Below, piece by piece: positions 17,197 through 61,476 of a DNA stretch of 64,000 nucleotides (position 1 is its first letter; every line of letters begins with the position of its first letter). Origin of the DNA: Bacteroidota bacterium (GTDB taxonomy: Bacteria > Bacteroidota > Bacteroidia > 2-12-FULL-35-15). The notes under the pieces are model-generated. The model had not been told where the DNA came from and made no database searches. It worked only from the letters and a program-made list of their open reading frames with translations. The stretch spans positions 434,001 through 498,000 of the forward strand of contig CANNHN010000001.1 of assembly GCA_947504725.1 (NCBI GenBank), in the 5' to 3' direction. The position numbers and the translations under genes are program-made.

Positions 17197-18618
17197 ATGA
17201 ATAAAAAGCTACAAGTATTAAAATACCTTATTGCCGATATTTCAGCTGCCATGCTTGCCTGGGCGCTTTTTTTTACTTTTCGAAAAATTTATATTGAAAC
17301 TGCAAAATTTGGAAAGCCCGTTCCTTTAGTTTACGATGAACAATATTATTGGGGATTACTTTTTATTCCATTCTTTTGGGTTTTAATGTACTATCTTACA
17401 GGGACTTACAAAGACGTTTATAGGAAATCTCGATTAAAAGAAATCGGACAAACATTTTTGCTTTCTATGATCGGTGTTTTGATCATCTTTTTTGCACTTT
17501 TATTAGATGATGAAATTGTTTCTTATAAAAATTATTACCAAAGCATCATCACACTTTTCCTTTTACACTTTGGCTTTACTGCTTTCTTTAGAGTCGTTCT
17601 TTCAAGTATAACAAATTACCGCATCCATAGCAGGGTTATCGGATTTAATACACTTTTGGTTGGTAGCAATGAGAATGCCTTGAAGCTTTTCAATGAGATG
17701 CAAAGCCAGTCAAAATCATCAGGGTATAAATTTATCGGTTTCGTACATATTGATAACAAAAACGGATTCTCTCAAGAACTAAAAAAGACTTTGCCTCACC
17801 TTGGTGAACTATCTGATTTAAAGAGAATTATAACTGATTTTAAGATTGAAGAAGTGATCATCGCTATCGAATCATTTGAACATGAGAATATCGGTAAGAT
17901 AGTGAACGAATTAGATTATCGCGGTCTCATCATTAAGGTGATCCCAGACATGTATGATATTCTTTCCGGTTCCGTAAAAATGACCTCTATTTTTGGCGCA
18001 CCCTTGATTGAAATTTCCCGTGAAATTATGCCTACGTGGGAGCAATCCTTGAAACGGATTATGGATATCACCATTTCGTTGATTGTATTAACACTTTTCA
18101 GCTGGGTTTACATCATTGTGGCTATTGCGGTAAAACTCTCTTCTAAAGGCCCTATTTTTTATAGCCACGAACGAATCGGATGGCATGGTAAACCTTTCTT
18201 TATTCACAAGTTCCGCTCCATGTATACGGATGCAGAAAAAGCAGGTCCGGCACTTTCAAGTAAACTAGACCCTCGAATTACTCCGCTCGGTCGTTTTCTT
18301 AGAAAAGTACGCTTGGATGAAATTCCGCAGTTCTACAACGTTGTAATTGGTGAAATGAGCATTGTTGGTCCACGCCCAGAGCGCCAATTCTTTATTGACC
18401 AAATTGTACTTCAGGCACCGCACTACAAACATTTGCACAAAGTCCGACCAGGTATTACTTCGTGGGGACAAGTAAAATATGGTTATGCCGAAAATGTGGA
18501 TGAAATGATACAACGTTTAAAGTACGATATCATTTATATTGAAAATATGTCTCTGGCAGTAGATTTAAAGATTTTGATTTACACTGCTCTGATTGTTATA
18601 CAAGGGCGCGGGAAGTAA
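17197..18618 (+). CDS. polyprenyl-phosphate sugar phosphotransferase (exopolysaccharide initiating transferase)
   Basis: A 473-residue membrane protein: four to five predicted helices in the first 130 residues, a central Rossmann-like CoA-binding-like domain (about 150-265), another helix (about 290-310), and a C-terminal bacterial sugar-transferase domain with FIHKFRSMY, DPRITPLGRFLRKVRLDEIPQ and GEMSIVGPRPE. It is of the WbaP/WcaJ type, which transfers a sugar-1-phosphate from a nucleotide sugar to undecaprenyl phosphate, the first step of capsule, O-antigen or exopolysaccharide synthesis. No other polysaccharide genes follow, so it is an isolated member. Confidence 0.93.
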   Translation: MNKKLQVLKYLIADISAAMLAWALFFTFRKIYIETAKFGKPVPLVYDEQYYWGLLFIPFFWVLMYYLTGTYKDVYRKSRLKEIGQTFLLSMIGVLIIFFALLLDDEIVSYKNYYQSIITLFLLHFGFTAFFRVVLSSITNYRIHSRVIGFNTLLVGSNENALKLFNEMQSQSKSSGYKFIGFVHIDNKNGFSQELKKTLPHLGELSDLKRIITDFKIEEVIIAIESFEHENIGKIVNELDYRGLIIKVIPDMYDILSGSVKMTSIFGAPLIEISREIMPTWEQSLKRIMDITISLIVLTLFSWVYIIVAIAVKLSSKGPIFYSHERIGWHGKPFFIHKFRSMYTDAEKAGPALSSKLDPRITPLGRFLRKVRLDEIPQFYNVVIGEMSIVGPRPERQFFIDQIVLQAPHYKHLHKVRPGITSWGQVKYGYAENVDEMIQRLKYDIIYIENMSLAVDLKILIYTALIVIQGRGK

Positions 18619-18695
18619 GTTCAAAGTTTAAAAGTTCAAAGTTTAAAGTTGGGCTTTGTTTTAACTTTAAACTTTATAACTTTGAACTTTAAACT
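18618..18695. repeat. inverted word-array repeat (AGTTCAAAGTTTAAAG type), copy 1
   Basis: The left arm 18618-18650 is built from words AGTTCAAAG / AGTTTAAAG, and the right arm 18663-18695 is the reverse complement of a permuted set of the same words; the two arms are 33 bases each with a 12-base centre. A related array occurs at 37057-37167. Confidence 0.8.
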
Positions 18696-37056: not shown

Positions 37057-37167
37057 AGTTCGAAATTTAAAGTTTGAAAGTTTAAAGTTTTATTCTAATC
37101 ATAAAAAGCAAACAGTAGGCTCTCACCTACTGCTAACTTTGAACTTTAAACTTTTTAACTTTGGACT
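37057..37167. repeat. inverted word-array repeat (AAAGTTTGAAAGTTTAAAG type) with inner hairpin, copy 2
   Basis: The left arm 37057-37090 and right arm 37135-37167 hold inverted words such as AAGTTTAAAG and CTTTAAACTT. The centre has a perfect hairpin CAGTAGG-CTCTCA-CCTACTG at 37113-37132. It spans the trxA stop codon and fills the gap to the DUF58 gene. Confidence 0.75.
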
Positions 37168-39510: not shown

Positions 39511-39540
39511 GATTTCGTTTCATGAATGCCCTTCCAAAAC

Positions 39541-39943
39541 GTCATCCCGTGCCACGACACGGGATCTCATTGTCGCTACTTCTCTGTTATTTCAAACGAC
39601 CAGTCTACTGCCAAATCTAGCATTTCCAAATTCATAGTTTTCACCAGTTCAATCTTCCACTCTCTCTTCCATTCTTTCAATTGCTTTTCTCGTTGTATAG
39701 CGTCAGTGATTCTATCGAATACTTCGTAATACAAAAGTTCAGAGACATTGTACTTCTTGGTAAAGCCAGAGCTAATTCCACTTTTATGTTCGGCCACCCT
39801 TCTCTCCAAATCATTCGAGATACCTATGTACAAAACTGTTCTGTTTTTGTTCGACAGAATGTAAACATAGGCATTGTTAAGATTCATATTGTATTAAGAT
39901 TGGATTCCTAATTGGCAGATCCCGTGTCGTGGCACGGGATGAC
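39541..39943. mobile_element. palindrome-flanked GIY-YIG element
   Basis: Perfect 27-bp inverted repeats at 39541-39567 and 39917-39943 enclose a single gene. Each repeat is itself a hairpin: ATCCCGTG-(6-base loop)-CACGGGAT (39544-39565 and 39919-39940). Outside the arms the DNA shows no similar repeats. A gene-less copy lies at 24823-24904. No target-site duplication is evident. This looks like a small element that could move with the help of its nuclease or of a nuclease in trans; mobility is inferred. Confidence 0.7.
39576..39887 (-). CDS. GIY-YIG endonuclease domain protein
   Basis: A 103-residue single-domain nuclease: YVYIL (residues 7-11) and YIGIS (20-24) form the GIY-YIG strands, the catalytic Arg is in DLERRVAEH, and the conserved Glu of the C-terminal half is in AIQREKQLKEW. 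It resembles the small stand-alone UPF0213/Slx1-like GIY-YIG proteins that occur in many copies in Bacteroidota. It is intact and lies 9 and 30 bases from the two 27-bp inverted repeats, so it is the natural candidate to act on those hairpins. Confidence 0.92.
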   Translation of the reverse strand: MNLNNAYVYILSNKNRTVLYIGISNDLERRVAEHKSGISSGFTKKYNVSELLYYEVFDRITDAIQREKQLKEWKREWKIELVKTMNLEMLDLAVDWSFEITEK

Positions 39944-39988
39944 GGTTACGAAAAGGATTTTTCTCCGATAATGACAATAATTTTGATA

Positions 39989-46563: not shown

Positions 46564-46699
46564 TTAAACACATAGACACATAGAAAAATAAGGAGCTAAA
46601 GCTCTACATAGAGACACATATACTCTATGTCCGAAGCTTGCTTCGGCTATCCAAATAAGCAGACTCTAACCCTATAAAAACTATGTGTCTATGTGTTAA
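46564..46699. repeat. ~135-bp structured element (CACATAG family), copy 1
   Basis: Ends TTAAACACATAGACACATAG (46564-46583) and CTATGTGTCTATGTGTTAA (46681-46699) are inverted with one extra base. Inside are GAGCT-AAA-GCTC and the perfect hairpin CCGAAGC-TT-GCTTCGG (46631-46646). Two further copies occur at 47484-47616 and 57316-57449. Confidence 0.85.
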
Positions 46700-46754
46700 A
46701 ACCTTTTGAGAGTGTTATATTTGAAGCCGAAAAGCCAAAAAAGTGTGTTATTTG

Positions 46755-47483: not shown

Positions 47484-47616
47484 TTTAAACACATAGAAAC
47501 ATAGAAAAAAGAGAAGCTAAAGCTTTATATAGTATCTCATAGCTCTATGTGCGAAACTTGTTTCGCCTATCAACACACAAAGAAATACACAAAAAATCTA
47601 TGTGTCTATGTGTTAA
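47484..47616. repeat. ~135-bp structured element (CACATAG family), copy 2
   Basis: Ends at 47484-47504 (TTTAAACACATAGAAACATAG) and 47598-47616 (CTATGTGTCTATGTGTTAA). The inner hairpin is GCGAAAC-TT-GTTTCGC (47551-47566), differing from copy 1 in paired positions. It lies between rpsP and the DinB-family gene. Confidence 0.85.
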
Positions 47617-47658
47617 AAATATACACAGCATAAGTATCATTAGAATCTGATTCACCAA

Positions 47659-57315: not shown

Positions 57316-57449
57316 TTTAAACACATAGGCACATAGTTTTAAAAAATAAAAAAATAAATTCCATAGATGAAGCAAGCTTCATTCACATAGAGCTATGTGC
57401 TTCTATATAAAGCTTAAGCTTCTTCTTTTTCTATGTGTCTATGTGTTAA
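57316..57449. repeat. ~135-bp structured element (CACATAG family), copy 3, inverted
   Basis: Ends at 57316-57336 and 57431-57449 (CTATGTGTCTATGTGTTAA). The inner hairpin ATGAAGC-AA-GCTTCAT (57367-57382) has an AA loop, the complement of the TT loops in copies 1 and 2, so this copy is in the opposite orientation. Confidence 0.85.
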
Positions 57450-57526
57450 AAAAATGCGAATCACTATTGTTAACCACAAATGTAGTAATTTAGTAGCCTG
57501 AGTACAGTACAATTTTATCATTGAGC

Positions 57527-61392: not shown

Positions 61393-61476
61393 AAGTAGCA
61401 GGCAGCAAGTATCAGGTATCAAGACCTTTTACGAAATACATTTTGAACTGCTACCTGATACTTGATACTTAATACT
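61393..61476. repeat. inverted word-array repeat (AAGTATCAGGTA type)
   Basis: The left arm 61393-61424 and the right arm 61445-61476 share the words AAGTATCAGGTA in inverted order, with GTAGCAG in the left arm and CTGCTAC in the right. It fills the gap between the aldolase gene and accD. Confidence 0.7.

Follow-up and report, generated by a model that had tools for sequence, protein, structure and literature searches.

Short, gene-less, intergenic repeats whose ends are common to a gene-bearing relative in the genome are known from the MITEs of classical DDE insertion sequences. REPIN/RAYT systems consist of intergenic hairpin elements that co-evolve with a nuclease gene. In the Bacteroidetes, subclass 2.6 RAYT genes have atypical structures on their flanks, and copies of these are found in other parts of the genome (PMC6006769). 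The 23S rRNA intervening sequences (S23p, PF05635) are elements of ~430 nt that have inverted ends and encode a single small protein. That of Coxiella is described as selfish, 428 nt long, with a 28-bp terminal stem, a four-helix-bundle gene and excision by RNase III (PMC4990558).

The repeats analyzed here lie in a window of 64,000 nt, the whole stretch of Bacteroidota DNA under study. They share with the DDE MITEs all of the properties listed above, but their partner is a PD-(D/E)XK-fold protein, GxxExxY, and not a DDE transposase, and they differ further in tandem-iteron ends, a conserved internal hairpin core and the lack of a detected target duplication. Unlike REPIN/RAYT systems, their partner has the PD-(D/E)XK fold and no HUH Y1 gene was detected in their own genome, and unlike the 23S rRNA intervening sequences they lie outside rRNA, with an unrelated protein and motif. 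We consider it moderately probable that the window repeats are MITE-like derivatives of GxxExxY elements, with GxxExxY as the mobilizing enzyme that binds and cuts the ends. Membership of the window repeats in a GxxExxY-linked mobile element family is likely, while the enzymatic role of GxxExxY on the element ends is close to an even call.

Folded intergenic repeats in the window and the genome

The three copies named in the original prediction are real, with positions correct to within 1 nt (Table 1). All three have the same 20-bp inverted ends, as had been noticed, and the AGCT-type hairpins are present as well. Six occurrences of the 20-nt end motif were counted in the window, compared with an expectation of 0.00 for shuffled sequence. 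As single strands, the copies have folding energies far below those of shuffled sequences (z −8.5, −5.0 and −5.7), and at the gathering score none of them matches an Rfam RNA family. The sole Rfam match in the window is a cobalamin riboswitch (RF00174, 12496-12687, minus strand, 93 bits), away from the copies. A different repeat family is seen at 39525-39959, where 43-nt inverted repeats of the GTCATCCCGTGCCACGACACGGGATCT type stand 349 nt apart.

Table 1. Positions of the repeat copies and their parts in the window
Feature	Position	Strand	Context
Copy 1, gene-less element	46564..46700	+	between universal-stress-type gene (-) and rpsP (+)
Copy 1, left inverted end TTAAACACATAGACACATAG	46564..46583	+	
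Copy 1, AGCT-type hairpin GGAGCTAAAGCTCT	46592..46605	+	occupies the spot of AAAAATAAATTTTT in most other copies
Copy 1, covarying hairpin CCGAAGC-TT-GCTTCGG	46631..46646	+	
Copy 1, right inverted end CTATGTGTCTATGTGTTAAA	46681..46700	+	
Copy 2	47485..47617	+	between rpsP (+) and DinB-like gene (+)
Copy 2, covarying hairpin GCGAAAC-TT-GTTTCGC	47551..47566	+	
Copy 3, inverted	57317..57450	-	between RNA methyltransferase-like gene (-) and outer-membrane-type gene (+)
Copy 3, covarying hairpin ATGAAGC-TT-GCTTCAT	57367..57382	-	
Single end of another GxxExxY class, ATAGGAACGCAGAT...ATGATTTTCATGATAAAAAA	60077..60121	+	among companions of other end classes

A genome-wide search was run on the 3.4 Mb of the organism's own genome (43 contigs), with up to three mismatches allowed in the end motif. 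It returned 44 end motifs, from which 23 paired elements of 131-488 bp were assembled, and one single end stands beside these pairs (C13:30417); the original count of three copies was thus too low. All but one of the paired elements are gene-less (22 of 23, 131-249 bp), and all 23 are intergenic, in tandem (12), divergent (7) and convergent (4) gaps; the 3' ends of genes are not favored. Short iterons in inverted pairs (CACATAG A CACATAG) make up the ends. Between them, many copies have a core that consists, in order, of CATAG, AAAAATAAATTTTT, an ACATAGA...TCTATGT pair that encloses a variable loop, an xTGAAGC-TT-GCTTCAx hairpin and CTATG, with spacers between core and ends that differ from copy to copy. 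The window copies form a subtype in which the AGCT hairpin stands in place of AAAAATAAATTTTT. Some copies carry just a long perfect palindrome, and one element of a relative (L213) consists of the two ends alone, 62 bp in all.

Pairing in the inner hairpin was evaluated over 48 copies and 2000 shuffles. Watson-Crick pairing was kept in 41 of 48 copies at stem position 6 (three pair types, 27.3 expected) and in 33 of 48 at position 7 (four pair types, 13.3 expected), and no shuffle equaled the observed pairing at either position (0/2000 each); in the 19 copies of the own genome the corresponding values were 17 and 16. In the hairpin, both outer pairs of the stem vary while remaining paired, and the GAAGC part is nearly invariant. 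The original prediction had described a covarying inner stem under selection as a folded molecule, and had held that an absence of further copies, or stems varying without pairing, would argue against it. The opposite was found, with many copies and retained pairing, and the covariation supports conserved folding.

Conserved folding could also act at the level of RNA, with the ends forming an RNA stem that is cut by RNase III, as in the 23S rRNA intervening sequences, and with selection on the transcript. The Coxiella element offers a precedent, and in the tandem gaps of the own genome about 9 of the 11 elements with a defined direction point along transcription, which hints weakly at an RNA-level effect or at a bias. 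Against this, about half of the elements lie in divergent or convergent gaps, G-T pairs in the stem are not clearly commoner than A-C mismatches, and the dispersal of the elements would go unexplained, so that we regard an RNA-level origin as improbable. Of the roles suggested in the original prediction, an RNA-processing site is not supported by the placement of the elements, which lie in all three gap types and do not favor gene 3' ends, while the MITE option stands on the inverted ends, the intergenic dispersal, presence and absence at orthologous sites, the absence of coding capacity and the existence of a gene-bearing relative.

A gene-bearing copy and its predicted nuclease

The longest element (C4:251130-251617, 488 bp) holds an intact GxxExxY gene between the same ends as the window copies. 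Its product belongs to the GxxExxY family by profile score, with matches to TIGR04256 (E 1.5e-38, 131.8 bits against a curated cut-off of 35) and PF13366 (E 5.4e-37, 127.2 bits against 22). GxxExxY proteins have ~135 residues, and the structure model, which is confident (pLDDT 96), has a PD-(D/E)XK fold. The nearest solved fold is the Cas4 protein SSO0001 (4ic1; Foldseek E 1.2e-3, Z 9.4), with BamHI (Z 7.5) and Hjc (Z 6.4) among the restriction enzymes and Hjc-type resolvases that come next at lower scores. In an alignment of 27 proteins E31, D71, E81 and K83 are invariant, and both the fold and the D71, E81-x-K83 signature of PD-(D/E)XK enzymes are present; GxxExxY is therefore likely a nuclease, as predicted from the alignment and the model. 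A Q..Y-like stretch is a further resemblance to Cas4/RecB-type nucleases. Unlike these, GxxExxY is small, has an invariant GxxExxY helix and is encoded between inverted repeats, and none of the invariant or nearly invariant columns of its alignment holds a cysteine, in contrast to the conserved Fe-S cysteines of Cas4. No match to GxxExxY was found in phage records; eight were found in plasmid records, which were used only for the Bacteroides site described below.

The interior of the gene can be recognized in the small copies through matches of 28-35 nt, the best of which scores 48.1 bits over 28 nt, compared with 26.3 for the best shuffled match. Many small copies hold two pieces of the GxxExxY gene, and in every copy that carries both (23/23) the two blocks follow the order of the gene. 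The window copies are without the longest of these gene-derived blocks, AAAAATAAATTTTT, and are tied to the gene mainly by their ends, the CATAG/CTATG boxes and the GAAGC hairpin.

Among related genes, the fewest synonymous differences fall around HRKINFLTE and SSVFEAQLL, the same two pieces of the gene, where the share of identical codons reaches 0.88 and 0.81 against ~0.55 elsewhere. In a larger gene set the first segment (HRKINFLTE) is still the peak (permutation 0.02), though the signal is modest. We read these segments as putative sites in the DNA, overlapping the coding sequence, that the gene-less copies retain, and the preferred codons of AT-rich genomes could account for part of the low synonymous change. 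The same internal block was not found in the other GxxExxY classes: in the CACTAAG set the peak of low synonymous change falls at the 5' end, where coverage of the alignment is poor, and in the CGCAGAG set the signal is not significant. At one locus of a relative (L063, G028:C126), a palindromic insertion splits a GxxExxY gene; it sits in the loop of the GAAGC hairpin inside that gene.

Iteron ends and their resident genes

All five GxxExxY genes of the own genome are bracketed by inverted iteron repeats of the CACnnAG type, each with an end pair of its own sequence. Gene-less companions of 69-253 bp were found there for three of the other four end classes, and each end class tested pairs with one resident GxxExxY gene. 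The single end at the right of the window belongs with these companions, and no partner end for it was found in the window. Within the genus, GxxExxY is present in 36 of 36 genomes and significant inverted repeats flank 27 of 34 loci tested, while control rpsP loci are mostly without them. The pattern extends across phyla, where inverted repeats occur at 49 of 63 GxxExxY loci named by organism, compared with 3 of 55 displaced control windows; the 49 come from Bacteroidota, Ignavibacteria, Acidobacteria, Planctomycetes, Verrucomicrobia, Chloroflexi, several Proteobacteria and one methanogenic archaeon. Examples of the iterons include ACCACAGAGACACAGAG, ACCACTAAGGCACTAAG and AACCACATAGAAACATAG.

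Over the tree of 71 proteins, of which 67 have an iteron class that recurs, the class changes 16 times, compared with 39.0 times when labels are shuffled (minimum 34). Correlation of ends and protein is partly expected because gene and ends are physically linked. That both ends match each other as well as the protein nevertheless suggests that the protein recognizes them.

The main rival explanation accepts that the elements are mobile and makes GxxExxY a passenger, such as a defense or maintenance nuclease, with the ends recognized by an unlinked enzyme. A precedent exists in the Rpn proteins, nucleases formerly called transposases and later reported to act in toxin-antitoxin phage defense (PMC10327210). 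Further, the PF05635 four-helix-bundle genes of the genus also lie between iteron-type inverted repeats, at 27 of 29 loci (L119-L148), with end motifs unlike those of GxxExxY (for example GAGATTTGAGAT, AGTATCAGGTATC or TTAGTTGTTAG); two unrelated proteins therefore share one element plan. The elements, however, have space for one gene only, each tested end class matches one resident GxxExxY gene, and protein and ends change together over a large tree, as an unlinked enzyme would not predict. On balance, a passenger role is unlikely, although it carries more weight than the other alternatives.

The four-helix-bundle elements were themselves considered as members of the same family and rejected on their different iteron motif and unrelated protein. 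Inverted repeats of AAGTTCAAAGTTT, AAAGTTTGAAAG and AGTATCAGGTATC iterons occur in the window at 18617-18695, 37069-37162 and 61394-61476; they resemble four-helix-bundle ends and are probably gene-less copies of such elements.

The hairpins, the intergenic placement and the lack of a detected target duplication would also suit REP-type elements that depend on a Y1 HUH transposase (RAYT/TnpA-REP), for which the subclass 2.6 genes of the Bacteroidetes are a precedent. The own genome has no match to PF01797 at E 1e-5 despite its 23 elements, and a HUH/RAYT partner was rejected on this ground. In three relatives, nine Y1 loci are without CTATGTG ends within the stretch compared, and REP-type elements are accordingly a very improbable explanation.

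Insertion sites and a proposed route of movement

Presence and absence of the elements can be followed at orthologous sites. Copy 1 occupies the orthologous place in two relatives, G035 (L090) and G016 (L092), and no recognizable element was found at its site in G003, G006, G025 and G007. Copy 2 is absent from its place in the relatives compared and was seen only in the own genome. The flanks of copy 3 are continuous without an element in G003 and G007, and in G035 element-type sequence is found at these flanks. A search with joined flanks turned up orthologous sites without an element, for several of the elements, in G003, G016, G006 and G007; the sites are old and their flanks have diverged.

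A further junction is available in Bacteroides, where the gap after radA is just 1-9 nt in several species (the empty sister species), and in others a GxxExxY element begins at the radA stop or one base beyond (loci L299-L353). Two GxxExxY lineages, 53-58% identical and with CACAGAG or CACAGAT ends, fill this junction, which means either that insertion at a preferred site took place more than once or that one element has replaced another. The search for target duplications that the original prediction had called for found none, either in flank statistics for 60 copies or at the radA junction, and none was seen at the empty sites of the four relatives, where the flanks are too diverged for exactness.

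Under the mechanism proposed here, a full-length element would carry GxxExxY as its single gene, and the PD-(D/E)XK-fold product would bind the hairpin core together with its own iteron ends and cut those ends, perhaps while they are folded as a hairpin or cruciform. The copying or joining would presumably be finished by replication or repair enzymes of the host, transfer would go into AT-rich intergenic gaps with no obvious target duplication, and gene-less copies that retain ends and core could be moved in trans. Recognition and cutting of the ends by GxxExxY are suggested because the ends are matched to the protein and the protein has a nuclease fold. It should be noted that no PD-(D/E)XK protein is known to join strands by itself, which counts against this explanation.

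Annotated GxxExxY genes occur in many phyla, and a genome often has several of them; the literature searched does not state their function. Searches for the family (PF13366/TIGR04256) and for the repeat sequences yielded no description, and with subscription papers and preprints partly outside their coverage a prior description is possible. What this analysis adds is the association of GxxExxY with matched iteron ends, the searched literature being silent on mobility or ends. A broader view, which we advance tentatively and at somewhat less than even chances, is that GxxExxY elements form a widespread class of mobile DNA whose sole protein is a small Cas4-like nuclease, with iteron ends matched to that protein, MITEs of their own, no target duplication and no DDE, HUH, serine or tyrosine recombinase.

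The link to matched ends and gene-less companions gives the GxxExxY family a testable role and accounts for a large set of unnamed intergenic repeats. It may also lead to a chemistry of transposition that relies on a Cas4-like nuclease, and the occurrence of the same architecture in many bacterial phyla and one archaeon suggests that a family of mobile DNA has been overlooked.
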